Shown: positions 3,772 through 31,891 of the stretch, in pieces
Numbering within the stretch: position 1 is the stretch's first letter
How the letters are laid out: the number at the start of each line of letters is the position of its first letter
Origin: Paraglomus occultum
Lineage: Eukaryota > Glomeromycota > Glomeromycetes > Paraglomerales > Paraglomeraceae
DNA length: 33,468 bases
Assembly (NCBI GenBank): GCA_910592205.1
Contig: CAJVPJ010000227.1
Coordinates: 1 to 33,468 of the forward strand
Direction of reading: 5' to 3'
Notes under the pieces: model-generated
The model's input: only the letters and a program-made list of their open reading frames with translations
Told to the model about the DNA's origin: nothing
The model's database searches: none
Program-made: the position numbers and the translations under genes

Positions 3772-6700
3772 TTACTTGACATTTACGTATCCAGCAAAAT
3801 GAACGAGGTTACGTGCTTTTCTCTGTAAATGTTCCATTTTCTAATACAAAAGATAATCTCAGTACCAGCAAACTCTTTTATTCCATACAATGCTCTGACC
3901 AGACTATTCTACTTACCAGATACGCGTCATCGTTCTTGTATAGCGTGTGTGAAGTGACTGTTGTTTTCAAATGAACGTAATAATCATGCATATTCTGCAT
4001 AATCATCAACATAATGTCGGGTATATTCCTTTTTAATGCGTCATCATACATCGACAACTGATTTGCGCATCGAGCAACTCGATTAATATCTCCGTCTAGT
4101 GGAATAACATCGACTTCCTCAATCAACTAGTAATACAGGAGAAAAAAAATTAATAATGATAAATGGATAGACATAACATCACTAGCTGTTCACGCCTTTG
4201 AATACTTACGTCCATGGCCTTGCCATAATCTTTGTTTTCATATAATAGCATAAAATCAGTTATCCTGATCAAGTTCCTGCAATCTTGCACTCGATTTGGA
4301 TATGCCTGATGGCTGATAATAGTCTGTGCCTCGTATCTTTCAAAAATAGCTTTAATGTCTATTGGATTCAATTCCTCCAGGTCTTCCTTTGAAAAAGTTG
4401 TTTTGTGCAATTTGTTATAGATATATTCACCCAGCATTTTATTTAAGATTACAATGATCATCTCATAGTCCTATGAAAAATAAGTAATCAAAGAGAAAAC
4501 CCGGTGATTGATAATTATGCCTAATACGTCAATATGCCAGTCTTAACGTTTATATAACTCACCTGAATTAACTCGAACAAACTAACAGCAGCTTTGAATC
4601 TTCCGTCATTTTCACATTGTCGCGCAAGAGGCTTGATGATTTTATCTTTAAAGTCATACTCTGTCCTCAAGAACATTAATGGCGTAAACCTCTTAATCTC
4701 GCCCTCCTAAAAAGCCATAAATACAGACAGTCAGCACTTTCCCCCCAAAGTCGTTATTATTTCCTTTTCCTTCTCCCTCTCGCCCCGAACCACTTACCGT
4801 GCCTAGCACAGTACTCCCGATTAATTCGCTAAATGCCTGGTTCTCATAGACGAGCTGCCTGACGTAATCATGGCTTATGTCTATCTGCTGCCGTCCAAAT
4901 TCGCTGTCTGTATCTCCATACAAGTACATGAGAATAGTATATTGAAGTGCTTCGCGTGGGTTCGATTGCGAAAAGCGTTGCGGATAAAAGTACATTAAAG
5001 AGTTAAAATTGAGGTATGCCTGTTCGTCCTTTTCTAAAACTGGCAGTAAAACAAAAAAAAAGGTATACAATCAACAAAATGCCAAAGAGAACGTCATATG
5101 CATAATAAACGAACATGCCCACTCACATAGAGAAACAGCATCCTGCGTTTCTGGAACTCGTAATAAACCATAATAAGCCAGCGCGATAGCAAAATGTACG
5201 GCTTCGACATCACATTCAGTCTGGTGTAAATAAAAAACAGCTCTCTCAAACTGTCCTGACAACAACAGTAACCGGAAGTGGTTTACAAAATCTTTTCCTG
5301 ACATGCTGACGTTATCCGAAACTTCATCTTGAGCTATCTCTTTCTGTAAATCGCGGATCGTATATACTTCGTACGATGACTCACGCCCATGACCTTCGGA
5401 CGGTTCGCGTACTATTGCGAGCTGTGTTTTGAGGGAAAAAATAGCAGTCGAGCAAGGATTGAATTAATTCAAAGTACGCTATAAGTGGGTAAACATATAA
5501 AACGAGCAGACAAACCCCACCTTGAACCATAGGTAGTCTTCTACTGTTCGTATAACCGATTTTGACAGAGAAGAAGCATTGCCAAACTTGACTTGCGCGA
5601 CCAAATAAAACATTACTATTTTATACGGATCCTCCATCTGTTTAAACAAATCTCTCTTCTTGAGTTCTGCCATTAATTGGTCTCGAGAAGTCTTACTTAG
5701 ACTAAAGATTAAGCAAAGATGTTTAGTTATAAAATACAAATTCTTTTAAACATACAGCAGAAAAAAGACGTGACCATGTACCGTTTGTGATTTACATATT
5801 CATCAAAGTACTTTAAGAAAATAAGATCATTCTTATTTATGCACTTTTCTAAACTTTTTGCCACATTTAAAGCTTCTACCAACTTCCCACGCCTTGTCAA
5901 ATTGAATATTAGCCCCCAAAGAGGAATTCCTTCAAACATCTAAATTATAAGTAAAGCATGTTCAGTACGCAAAGGTTCATTGAACGTTTACATATAAGAT
6001 AAAGATCACCTACATCCAAGGACGTTGTTGGAACTCCCCCATTCTGTCGATGATATGCACGTAAAAAGGCACGTGCTGTATGCACAACACTCGGTACTCC
6101 ACCTAATTGTGCTTCAGTCCTATAATGTTCTATAAACTGCTGACACCATTCGTTATATCTTGAAACATTCAAGTGTTAAGAATCAACATGAGACAAAATT
6201 CTACATATAAACTATTATTTACAAAACAGGTAAAGGATACTCCACTTCCAAATAATGTCTTGCCCCCGTTACATGTTCTTCGCGCAGCTTGGCAGCCAGT
6301 TTAGATTCTGGGTGAGCATTATACGCTTTTGTAAATTGTCGCTCTTTCAACGGGATACCCTGAAATCGACCTTCAAGTACATTTTTCTCTCCAACAATCA
6401 TCGACAATGCCCTCCATCCCTGCAATATTCTTTGTTTCTAAAAAAAAAGTGATGGTCGAGAACGTGAATGGTCGAACGTGCTAATGTAAATAAACGCAAC
6501 AACACGCAGTGCAATATATACAACGTAGATGAAATTAATATCCTACAGATTCGATCCCGATCTTCTTTGCTACTTCATAAAACGAATTAATGATTCCAAA
6601 ATCGCGTTTTTGTAACCGATGTTCATTCAACCTTCGTATTACGTCGTAGTATAGCATCATTCTCTGATTCACCTGAAGCCGAGATTCAGACCGTTGCAAC

Positions 6701-8666: not shown

Positions 8667-11240
8667 TCAAAGGTCATCAAGATCCCCAACATCTACACCC
8701 TTTGCCTTCAAAGCCTTTAACATCTCCCGTGCTTTCGGCTGATCCTTGAGAGCTGCAAGTCTCAAATACCTCACACCTTCTCGCTCATTCTTTGGAATAC
8801 CCAATTTTCCGTTCAAATAAACGTCTGCCAGGTTGTAACGTGCTGACGGATTTCCATTGTCAGCGGAAAGGATTAAATAATGCATGAACTGTTCTTTATC
8901 AAACTTGATTCCTTCGCTGTTGACCATGCAGAATGCATATCGTAACTGGGCATCGGCAATACCATCATCAGCGGCCTGTTTGAACAGTTGAGCTGCTTCT
9001 TTTCTATTCTTTGCAACAACGTATCCTTCCCATAAGTAGTATCCTTTCCAATATATAGCCTGGGGATTGTCTAATTTGGCGTGAGCCTCGAAACATTTCC
9101 AAGCTTTCTCTTTATTACCTTCTCTATGCGCCGTGATACCTTCGTCCAGAGGAATAATTTCCTCGACAGGAACGAACAATTCGAATTCGAATTCAGGTGG
9201 TAAATCAGCACTAGGCAGGTTTAACGAGACAGATTTTCTATGATCTTCCGCATTTCTGTAAGTGTCACCAAGGGCTGGCGAGTCTAGGGTTAATGCAGAA
9301 ATTTCCGTAGCCGGTGGAGTGGCCGGTTTGAAATTTGGAGTACGCGTCGTTGGGAAGAATGTCTGCTGAAGTTTGTTGAGTTCCAAAAATAATTCGGAAA
9401 TAGTTGGACGCAGGCGCGGCTCTCCTTGCCAGGCTAACAGATAATTTATAAAAAATATGTTAGTTTTTCATAAATTTAATTGATTATTACAAACTCGAAA
9501 TCGACGCGAAGCTAACCATCACGAACTATCTTGGTGTATCCCTGTTGGAATGGACCGAGCTCCCAATAGAATGACTCTCGCTTGTCAGCCAAGACATGTG
9601 CTTCAATTTGGCTCGGGCTCATTCCCTTGAATGGTATTTTCTGGTGTCCAAGTTCCCAAAGGAGCAGGCCATAACTATAGATTTCACATTTCTGAGTATA
9701 CGGTACTCTTTCTTTATCTTCCTTGCCTAATACCCTTAGTTTCTCAGGAGCTAACCAGGGAAGATGATCAAATATCTTTATCGCAGTTGATTTATCATTG
9801 AATCCTCGGCTAAGCTTAAAATTTGCAAGTTTTGCTACAAAATCGTCTGTCAACTAAATCAAATAATATTGGTTAGGGATAGGATTCAGTCGCGATAATG
9901 ATGTTGGCAATAATGATAACACATCTTGCTAGTCCAAGTAATATAATATCCGAAAAAAATACTAACCAACACGTTCTGGCAGCGAATATCATGGTGCAAG
10001 TACTTGGTCTCGTGAAGAAAAGCAATACCACGACAAACGTCTAGAGCCAATTTCAATTTCAACTCCCACGGAAAGTCTTCAGGTTTCGTGGCTTCGTAGT
10101 AATCTTTTAAAGATCCTTTTTCTGCCCACTCAAATACCATTACACGAGCACCGTCGACGACTGAAGTTCCGTAGAATTTTATAATTCGTTGTCCCTCTTG
10201 CAAAGACTTTAAGATTGTAAGCTCCTTGGCAACCTTCAATCCATCATCCGTCTTCTTATCGGGTAAGGCAAATTTCTTTACGGCGACGTCTTGGAACCTG
10301 TAGGATTTCCTTGTAATATCTTTGTCGCGAGCATCGTTAGGACGACGATCGACTGGATCATGTAACTCTTCGGGTGGTATTTCATAAGTACGACTCAATT
10401 TGTCTGCTGATGTATTGGCAGCTACTTTGTCCTTAATGATGGATATCTCCTCGAGCACCGAGCTAATTTTATGATCCATGGTAGTGATACCACCTTCGAT
10501 ATTGTTTAGATACTGTCAAAAAATAGAAAGAAAAAACCATTAGCTTTGCGTTGAGCAGTAATAATGTCAGCGTAATAGAAATGTCTAACAAGGATTGCAA
10601 ACTGATAAAAGGATCGGATATAAAAATGCCATATAAACAGGCATATCTACACATTCATTGCACTTACATCTTTTATATCTTCCAAATCTTTTGTAACAGC
10701 CTCTCTGTCCAATTGTTGTTGATCTTCGGTCGAAATAGCGACTGCAAAATGCAGCATGTTCATGGTAGAATCAAATTCTGCCGAAAGTTTATTGAACATG
10801 GACTCTACAGCACTAGCTTCTTTAAACTTCTTAAATCCCTTAAGCTGGCTCACGTCTTGAAGAAAATCCCTGATTTTCTTGAGCAAAGCTACAAACTTCA
10901 AAAACGATTCATAATAATTCTGCTGCTTAAATCTTTCCTCGTTCTCCTTCTGCCGACGTTCGAGTAACTTGATGGCAGCTTGCGCCATAATCACTCGATC
11001 GTGCATGGCTCCACACATTCTTTTGTTATGCTGAGCTGTATCATATATTCTTATGATTTCAGTAATGGTTACCGTGACGACTGCTATGAGTGGGAGAAAA
11101 GGTTTGACAGCGTCGCCCGCAACCTGAACAGCCGAGCCGAATTTCTTGAGCACGTCGACACCAGAAGTCGTTGCTATTTCACCCATCGCGGAGACTCCAT
11201 CCGCTACACTAAACACGGAATCCACAGAGATTTCAGCCAT
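8667..11240 (-). CDS. MLKL-like bundle, kinase-like domain and Sel1 repeats (4 exons)
   Basis: The model is complement(join(8667..9433,9517..9853,9967..10512,10668..11240)), 740 residues, with phases 0, 0 and 1. Residues 1-191 (exon 1) are helical and resemble the MLKL N-terminal four-helix bundle, with ERFKQQNYYESFLKFVALL and FDSTMNMLHFAVAISTEDQQ. A kinase-like fold of the tyrosine-kinase-like group spans about 220-500: VAVKKF (Lys270), KELTIL (Glu288), HHDIRCQNVL (Asp366) and LPWLAPEKL. The DFG motif is replaced by NFK (Asn384), and no glycine-rich loop is visible, so catalysis is doubtful. About three Sel1 repeats follow at roughly 588-725. The upstream frame stays open to 11336, but the start at 11240 (MAEISVDSVFS) fits the family better. 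By analogy it may be a membrane-acting or scaffold signalling protein; this is inference. Proteins of this layout are expanded in Glomeromycotina. Confidence 0.85.
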
Positions 11241-14499: not shown

Positions 14500-16968
14500 C
14501 TAATTTGCTCTCTTTTTGGCTGGATAAATTTCAGCCAACTCTTGAATTTTTCTTTTTAACATAGACTTGTCATTATATTTAAAAAAATAAACCTTATTTT
14601 GTGCCTTAACATACCCTTTCTCTGCAGCTTTTTCATATAATTCAATAGCTTTCTGTTCATCTTGTTTCACTCCAACCCCTTCCTCATAACACCAACCAAG
14701 ATTATATTGTCCATATGGATGCTTTTTTTCAGCAGCTTTTTCAAACAATTCAAAAGCTTTTTGAATATCTCTTTCTACCCCAATTCCGTTCTTGTAACAT
14801 AGATTAAGACTGACATATGCATAAACATTGCCTTGGTTGACTGCTTCCTGGTACAATTCAACTGCTTTTAGAACATTTTTATCAACACCAATTCCATTTT
14901 CAAAACACCAACCAAGATTATCTTGTGCAAAAGAATCCCCTTGCATAGCTGCTTTTTGATATAATTCAACAGCTTTTTGATAATTTGTCTTTATACTAAT
15001 ACTTTTTCTATACAAATAACCAAGGTTATTTTGTACACTAGCATCACCTTGTTCAGCAGCTTTTTGATACCATTCAAATGCCTTTTCTTCATTTTTTTTT
15101 ACTCCAGTTCCATCCTCATAACACAAACCAAGATTAAATTGTGCACCAGCATTACCTTGTTCAGCAGCTTTTTGATACCACTCAACTGCCTTCTGTTCAT
15201 CTTTTTCTACTCCAGTTCCAAACTGATAACACACACCAAGATTACATTGTGCTTCAGCATGTCCTTGTTCAGTTGCCTTTTGATACCATTCAACTGCCTT
15301 TTTATTTTGATCATCTTTTCCCACTCCAGTTCCACTCTCATAACACCAACCAAGATTATATTGTGCACTAGCATCATCTTGTTCAGCTGCTTTTTGATAC
15401 CATTCAACTGCCTTTTGTTCATCTTTTTCTATCCCAGTTCCATATCTGTAGCACACACCAAGATTATATTGTGCCCAAGCATTTCCTTGTTCAGCAGCTT
15501 TTTGATACAATTCAACTGCTTTTTGTTCATTTTTTTCCACTCCAGTTCCATGTTCATAACACAAACCAAGATTCAACTGTGCATTAGCATCACTTTGTGC
15601 AGTTGCTTTTTGATACAATTCAACTGCCCTTTGTTCATTTTTTTCTACCCCAGTTCTATTTTCATAACATACACCAAGGTTATTTTGTGCACCAGCATCA
15701 CCTTGTTCAGCTGCTTTTTGATACCACTCAACTGCCTTTTCTTCATCTTTTTCTATTCCAGTTCCATTCTCATAACACAAACCAAGATTATATTGTGCTT
15801 GTACATATCTTTGTTCAGCTGCTTTTTGATACCATTCAACTGCCATTTGTTCATCCTTTTCCACTCCAGTTCCATTTTCATAACATACACCAAGGTTATT
15901 TTGTGCACCAGCATCACCTTGTTCAGCTGCTTTTTGATGCCACTCAAGTGCCTTTTCTTCATCTTTTTCTATTCCAGTTCCATCTTCATAACACAAACCA
16001 AGACTATTTTGTGCATCAGCATATCCTTGTTCAGCAGCTTTTTGATACCATACAACTGCCATTTGTTCATCTTTTTCTACCCCAGTTCCACTCTCATAGC
16101 ACCAACCAAGATTATATTGTGCTTGAGCATCACCTTGTTCAGCAGCTTTTTGATACCATCTGACTGCCTTTTCTTCATCTTTTTCTATTCCAGTTCCATT
16201 CTCATAACACAAACCAAGATTATATTGTGCTTGTGCATATCCTTGTTCAGCAGCTTTTTGATACCATTCAACTGCCTTTTGTTCATCTTTTCCCACTCCA
16301 GTTCCATTTTCATAACATACACCAAGATTAAATTGTGCACTAGCAAGCCCTTGTTCAGCAGCTTTTTGATACCATTCAATTGCCTTTTGTTCATCTTTTC
16401 CTATTCCAGTTCCATTTTCATAACATACACCAAAATTAAATTGTGCACTAGCAAGCCCTTGTTCAGCAGCTTTTTGATACCATTCAACTGCCATTTCCTC
16501 ATCTTTTCCCACTCCAGTTCCATTCCCATAATAATAACACAAACCAAGACTATTTTGTGCATCAGCATATCCTTGTTCAGTTGCATTTTGGTACCATTCA
16601 AATGCCTTTTGTTTGTCTTTTTCTGCTCCAGTTCCACTCTCATAACACCAACCAAGACTATTTTGTGCACTAGCATTTCCTTGCTCAGCTGCTTTTTGAT
16701 ACCATTCAACTGCCTTTTGTTCATCTTTTTCTACTCCAATTCCATTAGTATAACACACACCAAGATTATATTGTGCACTAGCATCACCTTGTTCAGCTGC
16801 TTTTTGATACCATTCAGCTGCCTTTTGATCGTCTTTTTCTACTCCAATCCCATTATTATGACATACACCCAGATTATATTGTGCAGTAGCATCACCTTGT
16901 TCAGCTGCTATTTCACATATTGCGAAAGAAAATTTATGTCGCAACGGTTCAAAGATGGTAGAAGTCAT
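14500..16968 (-). CDS. Sel1-repeat protein, 822 residues, intronless
   Basis: A single open frame starts MTSTIFEPLRHKFSFAICEI and then consists of 21 full Sel1-like repeats of 36 residues (units 4 and 15 have 38), ending with a degenerate unit and a basic tail (IYPAKKRAN). The unit consensus is AAEQGxAxAQYNLGxCYENG followed by TGVEKDEQKAVEWYQK. Units 1-17 are nearly interchangeable, while units 18-21 are more diverged and individually distinct. Sel1 repeats are TPR-like alpha-alpha hairpins that form solenoid scaffolds for protein binding. I see no signal peptide, membrane segment or catalytic domain, so an intracellular adaptor role is an inference. A mutated inverted copy lies at 24459-25527. 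The opposite strand stays open for 671 codons purely because of the repeat composition. Confidence 0.9.
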   Translation of the reverse strand: MTSTIFEPLRHKFSFAICEIAAEQGDATAQYNLGVCHNNGIGVEKDDQKAAEWYQKAAEQGDASAQYNLGVCYTNGIGVEKDEQKAVEWYQKAAEQGNASAQNSLGWCYESGTGAEKDKQKAFEWYQNATEQGYADAQNSLGLCYYYGNGTGVGKDEEMAVEWYQKAAEQGLASAQFNFGVCYENGTGIGKDEQKAIEWYQKAAEQGLASAQFNLGVCYENGTGVGKDEQKAVEWYQKAAEQGYAQAQYNLGLCYENGTGIEKDEEKAVRWYQKAAEQGDAQAQYNLGWCYESGTGVEKDEQMAVVWYQKAAEQGYADAQNSLGLCYEDGTGIEKDEEKALEWHQKAAEQGDAGAQNNLGVCYENGTGVEKDEQMAVEWYQKAAEQRYVQAQYNLGLCYENGTGIEKDEEKAVEWYQKAAEQGDAGAQNNLGVCYENRTGVEKNEQRAVELYQKATAQSDANAQLNLGLCYEHGTGVEKNEQKAVELYQKAAEQGNAWAQYNLGVCYRYGTGIEKDEQKAVEWYQKAAEQDDASAQYNLGWCYESGTGVGKDDQNKKAVEWYQKATEQGHAEAQCNLGVCYQFGTGVEKDEQKAVEWYQKAAEQGNAGAQFNLGLCYEDGTGVKKNEEKAFEWYQKAAEQGDASVQNNLGYLYRKSISIKTNYQKAVELYQKAAMQGDSFAQDNLGWCFENGIGVDKNVLKAVELYQEAVNQGNVYAYVSLNLCYKNGIGVERDIQKAFELFEKAAEKKHPYGQYNLGWCYEEGVGVKQDEQKAIELYEKAAEKGYVKAQNKVYFFKYNDKSMLKRKIQELAEIYPAKKRAN
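14629..16908 (-). repeat. Tandem 108-bp coding repeats (21 units)
   Basis: The Sel1 units are visible as a strong DNA-level tandem repeat of 108 bp (two units of 114 bp). Many neighbouring units differ at only a handful of bases, which suggests expansion and homogenisation by unequal exchange or slippage. The units nearest the C-terminus (14629-15060) are the most diverged. Confidence 0.9.
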
Positions 16969-19679: not shown

Positions 19680-21672
19680 TTAATCTATATTCGATATCAA
19701 GATATCGTCTTGAACCAGTGCTACAGCACTCGGACTATCAGAAAGAATGCCGCTATCTGCATTTGCAAACAAAAGGAAAACATAACTCTCTCCCATTATG
19801 AATAAAGCAGTAACAAAGAGTGTTATGGCAAATCCCATCATAGCCCAAAAAAATCCAAAATACTGTAATAATACTCCACCAATTACGGGACCAGCCAACA
19901 TTCCTACCGAGTAAGCCATATTCCAGAGAGCGTACACTTGCCCGTAAGCGCCCCCTCCGTTTTTGGCCACGAATTCGCCCAACAGCGGGAGCGTCGGTGT
20001 ACTGGCTACCGAATATGCAGCACCAAATAACACTAATGAAACTATGATCAATTCCAGAGCAAACGGTAACGCTATTAGAGCAGCAGCTATTGCGAGTAAG
20101 ATCATTCCCGCATTGATCAATAGCCACTGGCCTACTTTCTGTGACAACGATCCAACGATAGGAGAAATTATTGTGGGAATAATGACCGAAATGTAGATAA
20201 AGCCGATGGTTGTTGGGTCGCTGTTAAATCTCTCTTTGAGGTATATCGGAAGAATGGGTTCAATGCCTAAGGAAATAAGAGGGAAATGGGAGGGGAAAAG
20301 TCGTGTGTGATAGAACGAATATGATTAGACGTTTTTCAGTTGTAGCATTGACGTGCGTTGGACGTGACGGTTATGATATACAAGACACACCTGAAAAGAC
20401 ACTTGCAATCATCAGAACAGCTACGCAAACAGTGCTAACGTCCCAATTTCTAACCAAGCTCCAAAGTGATAGATCATTATTTATTGCAAGATTTCCAACC
20501 GGGGTCCCGTTCTCTTCGGTATTCATTCGAGTGTCATCGAGTAAGTTATCCTCTTGCAGCTCATGTGGTTCGACAATCATTAATATGGATAGAAAATCAA
20601 AAAAGGCTAAAATCGCACAGAACACGAAAGGAGATGCATATCCCCAGTATTGGTATAATGCACCCCCTATGATCGGTCCAGTAATAGCACCTATGGTGTT
20701 GGCCGATAATACCGTCCCCATGACAACTCCCAGTTTTTCCCCTTGACCGAATCTATCCGCAAGCATTGCAAGACTTATTGTCCTATACGTTTCGTTGGGG
20801 GGAGAGGGGGGGGGGGGGGGGAGTTAAAAACGCAATGTGAGTTTGAGCTATGAATACAACCATTCGAGGGTCTTTCAAACGGTAACAGTTTCTTTTACCC
20901 TACCACGATGCTCCACCAGCCGCACCCTGAGCAATACGTGCGATAACAAGTTGCCAGTATGTCTTGGCAATTCCAAAAAAGAGCGTGCAAATGGCAAGGC
21001 TACCCATACCCAGTAACATTGGCAACTGAACGTAGAATAAAAGATTAGCATTTAGTGACATGTTGGGTGATATCATTCTTTCCCTCTACCTTGCGAGTCT
21101 GATAACGGTCACTGAGTATGGCAAAGAAAGGTGTAGCCCCCAATAGACCAAGTGCTTAAAGAGATTAATATCATTTAGCGATGGTAAGCGAGAAACAGGA
21201 ATTTTCGCATACGTATAACACAAAAATAACATGCAATCCGATAATCCGATAATTTGGTGAAACACTTTCTAGCCGTGGGAATTATCTATTATGTTACTAA
21301 CAAAGCATATTTACCATAACAACCAAACAGGAATCCGACTGCCTGTGAATCAAGCTCAAGTCTTTCTTTGACAATCAAAGGCAATATCGGTACGACTATT
21401 CCATAGACAACCATATCGCTAAAATCGGTTTTTTTTTTTTTTGATTTTTTTCCCAGTCAGATTATAACATAATAAACATGGTATTGCCATGCCGCGCATG
21501 ATACATACGTAAATAAAGCCATAGCTGCAATCAACACAACTGCCGTTTTGGATCGTCGAAAGCGTTCACACCATCCATACTGGCGTCCTCTTATTATATC
21601 TCTTTCGACTGTGTTATAAAGGTCGTGGGTTGTTGGATCAGCACTTAATAATGGTTCTCGTTCATAGGACAT
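19680..21672 (-). CDS. MFS transporter, DHA1/vesicular-amine-like (6 exons)
   Basis: The model is complement(join(19680..20266,20391..20782,20904..21025,21090..21154,21315..21418,21509..21672)), 477 residues. All five introns are GT-AG with phases 2, 1, 0, 2, 1. About twelve hydrophobic segments are visible. Family motifs include LFTDMVVYGIVVPILPLIV in TM1, a motif-A-like ILSDRYQTRK in the TM2-3 loop, RIAQGAAGGASW in TM4 and the antiporter-type motif C, SANTIGAITGPIIGGALYQY, in TM5. The second half opens with GIEPILPIYLKERF, and the C-terminal half carries MLAGPVIGGVLLQYFG. This pattern is closest to the drug:H+ antiporter-1 and SLC18-like group. The substrate cannot be told from sequence; export of a small amine or xenobiotic by proton antiport is inference. 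The start at 21672 (MSYEREPLL, with a possible acidic-dileucine sorting signal) is the first ATG of the frame. Confidence 0.9.
20806..20821. repeat. G16 homopolymer inside MFS intron 4
   Basis: Sixteen consecutive G lie on the plus strand, with further G-rich bases before them. On the transcript this is a C-rich run between the donor at 20903 and the acceptor at 20783-20784, so it may act as an extended polypyrimidine tract. The true length may be mis-sequenced. Confidence 0.9.
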
Positions 21673-23293: not shown

Positions 23294-24458
23294 CCTCATC
23301 TGTTATTTTCGATTATAATAATAATAATAAACGCAATAAACATGTACATGCATGATCCAATCGATTGACCATGATAACTACTGTGTTTCATTTCCTTATT
23401 TGCATTTCTTCCCAAGTCATACGGCAACTTAAATAGCAATTAGGTTAATTTAAGGAAGTGGAATTATAATTACTCTTCATTTATAAACCGTTGATCTGAC
23501 TATTAATTATTCGTAACGAGGATGCAGTCTAGTATAATAATAGAGACGACCATATTAATATATATTGATATGTGGCAGTTATAACAAACAAACAAAGCCA
23601 GGAGTACCTGCAATACATGTGTTAAGGGGTCGTTAATGATTATGATTAATCTCTTTCTGATCTGCATTGTTCGTTTACGTCATATACATGGAGACGATTG
23701 TATTTGGCTAGCAGTAGACATGCAATTTGACATTATAACTCGTTGAATAATGACTTATTGCGAATGTGAAAATTTCATTGACCTTTCGAAAGCATAGACT
23801 ACAATTTCGTAACCACCGTCAAAGAGTTATTGTTACATATTAATATTGACTCGATTACATACAGTATTTAGATTTATAGCGAGAATCACCGTTCTTTTAC
23901 GTCGCCTTATTGTCACCGTGAGTTTCTACTATAAGAATCTCTATTCACATTAACATGCTTTGCATTAAAAAAAAACTGTATAAATTCATTACCCAGTGCG
24001 TAGCCAGACAATAAATTAAAATGGTTTATATACATGAAGCATTCTCGAACTATTATTACGCTATTACTATTGTTTACCCGTTAAATGCTAACCCAGTATT
24101 ACTTGTTATCATTTTATTATGCATAACGAAAAAAAAAGATGATAAATAAAATAACGGCGAGAGATTACCGACACTAATTGACTACATGAAACCAGTTCAT
24201 TTTTTATTCACATGATAAAAGTTAACTTTTGCCTGTCTGGTTTGTTCCTATTTTCTTAAAGTTAAGGAATGTTAAAGGTAGAAGACACGGTTATATTAAG
24301 ACGATATTTTGCGCACTACTTTATCAATGATGGCGTCAATGTACTACTGACTGAGTTGGTCGCACAAAATGACATTGTGTGCAAGCATCTATTGATCGCT
24401 TGATTTATTATTAAATATTAATATACAGTACAGTTTCTGGGAAGAGGGTATAACAAAC
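23294..24458. other. Intergenic, no gene seen
   Basis: AT-rich sequence, including a short AATAAT run near 23318-23330 just after the HMG stop. The rest shows no ORF above background, no splice-consistent exons and no structured RNA that I can recognise. Confidence 0.55.
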
Positions 24459-25527
24459 ATGGCTTTCTACCATCTTTGAGATAGCAAAAAAGATTCTAAA
24501 AGAGATTTGTTTCAAAATATTAATATATAAAGCTGCTGCTGAACAAGGTGATGCTCATGCACAATTTACTCTTGGTTATTGTTATGTGAGTGGAACTGGA
24601 GTAGAAAAAGATGAACAAAAGGCAATGGAATGGTATCAAAAAGCTGCTGAACAAGGTGATGCTGAAGCACAACATAATCTTGGTGTGTGTTATGCAAAAG
24701 AAACTGGAGTGGAAAAAGATGAACAAAAAGCAGTTGAATGGTGTCAAAAAGCTGCTGAACAAGGAAATGCTAGTGCACAAAATAGTCTTGGTCTGTGTTA
24801 TGGGAATGGAACTGGAGTGGGAAAAGATGATCAAAAGGCATTGAATGGTAGCATAAAGCTGCTGAACAGGGAAATTTGTATGCAAAATATAATTTTGGTT
24901 TGTGTTATAGCATTGGAACTGGAGTGAGAAAAGATGAACAAAATGCATTTGAATGGTATCAAAAAGCATCTGAACAAAATGATGCTGATGCACAGTTTGA
25001 GCTTGGTTATTTATATAGAAAAAGTATTAGCATAGAACCAGATTATAAAAAAGCTTTTGAATTGTATCAAAAAGCAGCTAAGCAAGAAAACTCTAATGCA
25101 AAGCATAATCTTGGTTGGTGTTATGAAAAAGGATTTGGTGTGGATAAAAATGTTCAAAAAGCAGTAGAACTGTATCAGGAAGCAGTCAAGCAAGGAAATG
25201 TTTCTGCATATGTCAGTCTTGGTCTATGTTACAAGAATGGAATTGGGGTAGAAAGAGATATTCAAAAAGCTATTAAATTGTTTGAAAAAGCAGCTGAAAA
25301 AAAACATGTATATATGGACAATATAATCTTGGTTGGTGTTATGAGGAAGGGATTGGAGTAAAACAAGATGAACAGAAAGCTATTGAATTATATGAGAAAG
25401 CTCTGAGCAAGGGTATGCTAAGGCAACAAATAAGGTTTATTTTTTTAAATACAATGATAGATCCAAGTTAAAGAAAAAAATCCAGGAGTTGGCTCAAATT
25501 TATCCAGCCAAAAAGAAAGCAAATTAG
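24459..25527 (+). pseudogene. Decayed inverted copy of the Sel1-repeat gene
   Basis: This copy matches the 822-residue Sel1 gene from its ATG (both starts read CTTCTACCATC or CTTTCTACCATC shortly after ATG) to its tail (IYPAKKKAN versus IYPAKKRAN) and the same TAG context. It has about eight Sel1 units instead of 21. Damage visible in the sequence: an extra base right after the start, a one-base loss near 24840 followed by an in-frame TAG (24849-24851), a two-base gain in a TATATA run near 25305, and a one-base loss near 25400. The later three shifts sum to zero, so the final tail returns to the frame used at the beginning. The last five units align one-to-one with units 18-22 of the intact gene. 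It is most likely a pseudogene; indel sequencing errors are a less likely explanation given the separate nonsense change. Confidence 0.85.
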
Positions 25528-30477: not shown

Positions 30478-31891
30478 ATGTCTGCCGGTCTTGACATGTC
30501 TCTGGATGAAATCATCTCCAAGAAGAGACCATCAAGAGGTATTAGAGGTAGACCCACTCGAGCTAGTGGCATTGTCAAACGTTCCGGTGGACCGATCAGG
30601 AACTCGCGGCCACTCCAAGCTGGATCTCGACCTTATGGGGTACCATCCGTAGCAACATCCAACGTCGGCTCCGCACCTGAAGGAAAGATTTTGGTATCTA
30701 ACCTTGCTTATAAAGTCACAGAGGCAGACCTTTGGGTAAATATTTATTGCATCCGAAAACTTTACAAAGCGTTCCCGGTTGGTCGAGAGTCACAACTTGT
30801 TAGAAAGGGAGATGCGAGAGAAAGCAAATGAGCTTCTTTCTTTGTGCCAAAGCTGAGGGGTTGCTCAACACTAGCATTGTGAGCGAAAAGCGACCTTTGT
30901 ACGAAAGTATAGTAGTCGTCATCGGCACTTTATTTGTTTAGTGGCTTTGGGACTTTGAAAAAGACCGATGTCCTTCCTTCTTACTCTCGATACAATCACC
31001 ATTATTCCTACTCCATGAAAACAATCACTCTCACTTCAATACACACCCACACCCACTCGCACTTCGACACCTCTCTTCCTTCTTTCCAACACCCAGGAAC
31101 TTTTCACAACTATGATCGGCCCCGTACGTCGAGTGAATCTCAACTTCGATAAAAATGGACGATCCAAAGGCACCGCTTCGGTTGTTTTCCAGAGAAGAGC
31201 AGATGCCGTAAGATCTGTTGAAAAGATGCGGAATATTACTCTGGACGGTGAGTTATAGGATGATATTTCTGGGTACTCGACGTTTGAATATGGTTGTCTT
31301 GAATATTAATTTATTTGGTATCACAGGACGTGAGATAAAGATCGAAATAGTTGTCGCTCCGGGAACCAACAGTGGAGCCAACCCTATTTCACAACGCATC
31401 GGTAATTTACAAGAGTAAGTATTGATGAAATCTGTGATTTATTATTTACTGTAAGCGCAGTGCTTTATATGCCACGACCCATTGCTGCGGGGGCTCGTCG
31501 GTTAATAATAATATCTTCTACGTTTTTCGCATTGTCTGAATATAATAAGGTCTAATTGGGAAACTTCAATTTGTAGGCGAAGCCGTATTACGCCCATTCG
31601 TGGAGCTGTGAGCGGTGCACCTCGAGGAGGATTGCCAGCGCGTGGTAGCGGCCGCGGTCGTGGTGGCATCCGTGGTGGCGGTCGTGGTGGTCGTAGGCCT
31701 GATAACAGGCAAAAAAAAACGCAGCAGGAGCTAGACGCAGAAATTGGTGAATATATGCAGATTGATGAAGTAAGTGTGTGATATGTTGTCTAATACTTGA
31801 CGAAAGTGTGTTTGTTGACCCATCCTTGCTGAACCATTATTAGCAGGAATCTAATCAAACGGCAGTTGATACTGTGGGAAAGCAAAACTAA
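30478..31891 (+). CDS. ALY/REF mRNA-export adaptor (THOC4/Yra1-like, 5 exons)
   Basis: The model is join(30478..30735,31097..31247,31327..31414,31577..31769,31847..31891), 244 residues, phases 0, 1, 2, 0. This is the more canonical of the two adaptors. It begins with a clear UAP56-binding motif (LDMSLDEIISKKR), followed by a basic RG-containing linker. The RRM covers about 69-147, with RNP2 ILVSNL (71-76) and RNP1 GRSKGTASVVF (107-117). An RGG-rich segment follows, and the C-terminal motif is QQELDAEIGEYMQID. Intron 1 (361 nt) is long, and its acceptor at 31096 is fixed by the RRM sequence ELFTTMIGPVRRVNLNFD. A nearby LFSGFG-like string at 30934 lies inside this intron. The last acceptor is a NAGNAG (TAGCAG at 31841-31846), so isoforms with or without one Gln are expected. 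Binding to mRNA and Sub2/UAP56 is inferred from the family. Confidence 0.93.

Follow-up and report, generated by a model that had tools for sequence, protein, structure and literature searches.

A Paraglomus occultum gene predicted to join an MLKL-like helical bundle, an inactive kinase domain and Sel1 repeats

MLKL, the necroptosis executioner of animals (PDB 6zvo, 2msv, 4btf and 6vc0), consists of a helical bundle followed by a kinase-like domain. Fungal HeLo/HELL executioners, among them HET-S and HELLP, are reported to be related to the MLKL bundle, and some HELL domains are fused to kinase or pseudokinase domains (PMC12881547). Among the fungal HeLo executioners in the part of PMC10197012 consulted, HET-S of Podospora is the best characterised, and HeLo/HELL activity is stated there to depend on an N-terminal helix with transmembrane propensity. 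Homologs of an 'MLKL family (1.A.105)' carrying Sel1 repeats were reported in Glomeromycotina only, with the remark that Sel1 has no clear function in fungi (PMC8778642). In this study, a gene predicted to encode an MLKL-like bundle, an inactive kinase domain and Sel1 repeats was analyzed on positions 1 to 33,468 of contig CAJVPJ010000227.1 of Paraglomus occultum (assembly GCA_910592205.1), a stretch of 33,468 nucleotides referred to as the window. The gene very likely belongs to the family reported in PMC8778642, the available account of which gives no motif, bundle, structure or gene anatomy. In the open-licence literature searched, mostly as titles and beginnings of abstracts, no paper was found on motif loss, the switch site or gene anatomy, nor was functional work found on MLKL-type proteins of mycorrhizal fungi.

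The gene lies on the minus strand, with the start codon beginning at position 11240 and the stop codon ending at 8667, which is exactly the span given in an earlier note on this DNA. Its four exons, separated by GT-AG introns, join into one open 740-residue protein (Table 1). Exon 1 ends at residue 191, past the bundle and one further helix. The introns at residue 191 (phase 0) and residue 486 (phase 1) are common to paralogs L038, L039 and L040 in homology-built models, and were not in place in the homology-built models of L041-L043.

In the predicted model, the bundle was found to occupy approximately residues 47-190, with helices at 48-67, 73-95, 97-104, 107-131 and 142-162 followed by a brace-like helix at 171-190, and the N-terminal approximately 46 residues (1-45) have a predicted local distance difference test score (pLDDT) below 50. 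In the AlphaFold model of orthologue P0001, helices 155-179 and 188-205, of partly low confidence, lie between the bundle and the kinase domain. When the model of residues 1-191 was compared with solved structures, the best match of the bundle fold among those searched was the animal MLKL executioner domain, in agreement with the MLKL-like bundle proposed in the earlier note, so that the refuting condition set there, a lack of any structural match to MLKL, did not hold, and a profile of the family bundle also matched MLKL best among the solved-structure sequences. Pfam MLKL_N scored 15.2 bits on exon 1, under its 27-bit cut-off, and 37.1 bits on P0001, over it. Pfam HeLo (PF14479) matched just 2 of the 26 full-length family members (best E 0.015) and, when 11 pieces of the bundle were scanned, again 2 (best E 0.0026), a possible difference from the HeLo/HELL executioners, and no HeLo match to the window protein appeared in the Pfam scan at E <= 1.

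The kinase domain spans residues 263-502 (Pfam, E 1.5e-35). The DFG site is occupied by 'LANFKLS', in which Asn384 replaces the Asp, HRD is replaced by HHD, and Lys270 and Asn371 are retained. No GxGxxG was present ahead of the VAVK motif in the sequence and alignment of the window protein, and only one strand, adjoining a low-confidence stretch, comes before the VAIK strand in the P0001 model. The altered DFG and missing glycine loop read earlier from the letters are supported by conservation in relatives, and the domain is predicted to be inactive. Motifs were counted in 24 bundle-bearing sequences, excluding P0015 (almost identical to P0012), four fragments or partial models (P0018, P0019, P0020 and P0033) and the later-found L046. 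The DFG Asp position holds Asn in 22 of the 24 and Gly in the other 2, never Asp, and the alpha-C Glu is lost in 20 and retained in 4. The VAIK Lys (Lys270) is kept in 20/24, the HxD Asp (Asp366) in 22/24 and Asn371 in 23/24. Ser395 marks the one activation-loop position at which all 23 sequences having a residue there carry Ser or Thr, and the HMMER alignment places it against a Ser of the MLKL loop. The window sequence alone is closer to ZAK than to MLKL (101.8 vs 72.5 bits). With a profile of seven family kinase domains, MLKL ranked top per domain (148 bits), followed by ZAK (136) and CTR1 (134.5); an EGFR chain and a JAK chain exceeded MLKL in total score only by way of two domains. After the kinase domain, Pfam located Sel1 (PF08238) in two stretches (E 1.7e-10, 41.5 bits against a curated cut-off of 30.7), as the earlier note had expected.

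The order and motifs of the protein were likened to MLKL from the outset, and fold comparison, profile searches and conservation in relatives support this. Common to the fungal protein and animal MLKL are the predicted bundle fold ahead of a kinase-like domain, the lost DFG Asp, the VAIK Lys and a Ser at the aligned activation-loop place. The fungal protein differs in the approximately 46 residues ahead of the bundle, in having Asn-Phe-x where the MLKL chains compared have Gly-Phe-Glu, and in its C-terminal Sel1 repeats. The match to the plant MLKL (AtMLKL3, PDB 6ka4) and NRG1 CC-R bundles was weaker than that to animal MLKL (11.3, tied with the unrelated helical protein 3ay5). Plant MLKL is not known to carry Sel1 repeats.

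When the genome was surveyed by kinase-domain matching, 29 loci were obtained at E <= 1e-5; the search scored 60 of 1001 candidates, so that the survey covers the best-scoring part of the kinome and not the whole. The bundle was found at eight loci (the window gene, L038-L043 and L046), none of which has the DFG Asp. At the other 21, no bundle match occurred in the fetched DNA, whose limited flanks could miss a far upstream bundle exon, and the DFG Asp was present in all 21 (Fisher p 2.3e-7, kinship ignored). L046 served as a blind case, since it was fetched by its kinase match and showed SNF, and the bundle profile then matched its DNA (E 1.8e-8). Three of the bundle-less loci (L019, L021 and L022, on contigs C393 and C1222) have TGA where Trp is expected, which suggests that these may be endobacterium contigs reading TGA as Trp inside the fungal assembly; without them, the Asp is lost in 8/8 bundle loci and in 0/18 bundle-less loci. 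The bundle-less kinases are not all intact, as L048 and L049 are without the HxD Asp.

Relatives with bundle, kinase and Sel1 were found in Ambispora, Gigaspora, Rhizophagus, Glomus, Dentiscutata and Funneliformis, with partial records from Racocetra, and the next fungal matches (Podila and Actinomortierella) lack the bundle and carry a canonical DFG. Among 120 proteins, P0029 of a Coxiella-like environmental metagenome-assembled genome has MLKL_N, kinase and Sel1 Pfam domains and an intact DFG. Five glomeromycotinan proteins without a full bundle (P0022, P0024, P0026, P0028 and P0072) have lost the DFG Asp, and P0022 has a bundle remnant. Outside the family, the Asp is also gone in 11 rows with Pro, mostly of the JAK type, and in P0071, P0074 and P0105. 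As a separate observation, the occurrence of P0029 in a Coxiella-like genome could reflect gene transfer.

On balance, the gene probably encodes an MLKL-type protein, with a predicted MLKL-fold bundle, a predicted inactive kinase domain and Sel1 repeats, that would act as a switchable executioner at membranes, damaging them or signalling there, and we infer for it a role in cell death. In the resting state, the brace helices and the pseudokinase would restrain the bundle, and the Sel1 repeats would dock a partner. An active tyrosine kinase-like (TKL)-type kinase would phosphorylate the conserved activation-loop Ser/Thr, here Ser395; the phosphorylated molecule would oligomerise and insert its hydrophobic first helix in the membrane, and the resulting permeabilisation would kill or seal off the hyphal compartment. 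Weighing against the MLKL likeness of exon 1, phmmer with this exon alone retrieved no MLKL among the solved sequences up to E 10, and the likeness is visible by family profile and fold comparison only. Sel1 repeats and kinase folds often act as interaction platforms, a common fold by itself demonstrates no function, and eight copies in one genome suit a signalling family as much as executioners, all of which would fit a non-lethal membrane scaffold whose bundle binds lipid and whose pseudokinase and Sel1 repeats gather signalling partners with neither pore nor death. We nevertheless regard such a scaffold as somewhat unlikely, given that the first bundle helix is strongly hydrophobic, that HeLo/HELL activity relies on an N-terminal helix with transmembrane propensity (PMC10197012), and that the family profiles of the bundle and kinase halves both match MLKL best. 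It is highly improbable that the domain is an unconventional active kinase in which phosphotransfer persists despite Asn384: the widely retained Lys270, Asp366 and Asn371 could serve it, but the glycine loop is absent, the alpha-C Glu is mostly lost and the DFG Asp always, and that Asp is present in every one of the 21 kinases without a bundle that were examined from this genome.

Either function is compatible with an origin in which a fungal kinase-Sel1 gene gained the bundle by an independent fusion, the MLKL likeness of the whole protein then being convergent assembly, and we regard the case for this as evenly balanced. In the kinase tree without MLKL, the kinases with a bundle fall into a single group (97/94) that also takes in four rows without one. 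They group with L044, a kinase-Sel1 gene of this genome that has glycine loop and DFG but no bundle, both without MLKL (96/88) and with it (81/84), and stand apart from the three MLKL kinases when these are added (91/93). However, the deep branch is weak (54/37), a joint clade with the MLKL kinases is not rejected (p-AU 0.31), and the family kinase profile scores MLKL over ZAK and CTR1. The kinase trees do not place the kinase half with the MLKL kinase, nor do they set the two apart, and common descent and independent assembly both stand.

If the executioner reading is true, the MLKL design is also at work in arbuscular mycorrhizal fungi. Two questions become testable with a conserved family of MLKL type that bears a candidate phospho-switch: whether this design is older than the animal-fungal split or arose by several separate assemblies, and by what means multinucleate hyphae could govern local death or self/non-self reactions. 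In P0003 (Gigaspora margarita) and in the similar Funneliformis geosporum records P0012 and P0015, the bundle is preceded within the record by a kinase that has DFG and HRD. Such an arrangement may represent a true fusion, neighbouring genes merged into one model, or a chance pairing in genomes where kinases are very numerous (R. irregularis has 2,533; PMC10234402). The front kinase is a lead and not pathway evidence. It is rather unlikely that these fungi have a necroptosis of their own, in which a multi-gene family would combine MLKL bundle, pseudokinase switch and Sel1 docking in one chain, with loss of kinase catalysis locked to the bundle; in the species of P0003, P0012 and P0015, an active kinase at the front would then turn the chain into a one-piece kinase and executioner in place of the RIPK3-MLKL pair. 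No kinase neighbour was found among the 12 window pieces scanned by Pfam; the features located there are given in Table 1. P0011, like the three records above, has canonical or additional kinase domains in one chain with its bundle-pseudokinase.

Table 1. Features of the MLKL-like gene and of its neighbours, in window positions
Feature	Position	Strand	Basis
Exon 1, residues 1-191: approximately 46 low-confidence residues, MLKL-like bundle, brace-like helix	10668..11240	-	Predicted model, fold comparison, family profile
Residues 48-66 (FLPLIAVVTVTITEIIRIY), hydrophobic first bundle helix, candidate membrane-active	11043..11099	-	Mean Kyte-Doolittle 1.81 over 19 residues; putative function
Exon 2, residues 192-373: second brace-like segment and linker, N-lobe lacking the glycine loop, VAVK with Lys270, HHD (364-366), Asn371	9967..10512	-	Sequence, alignment, orthologue P0001 model
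Exon 3, residues 374-485 plus the first base of codon 486: Asn384 in NFK at the DFG site, activation loop including Ser395, APE motif, C-lobe in part	9517..9853	-	Sequence, alignment
Ser395 codon, candidate phospho-switch	9788..9790	-	Ser or Thr in 23/23 aligned relatives with a residue there; putative role
Exon 4, from the second base of codon 486 through residue 740 and the stop codon: C-lobe end, linker, Sel1-like repeats approximately 576-725 (limits by eye)	8667..9433	-	Sequence, Pfam
Nic96 nucleoporin exon	4696-5463	-	Pfam
822-residue protein of Sel1 repeats, 21 stretches	14500-16968	-	Pfam
MFS transporter exon	19683-20324	-	Pfam
Shorter Sel1-repeat piece	24454-25358	+	Three stretches in 24454-24924 (Pfam); remainder by eye
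RRM protein exon	31019-31255	+	Pfam
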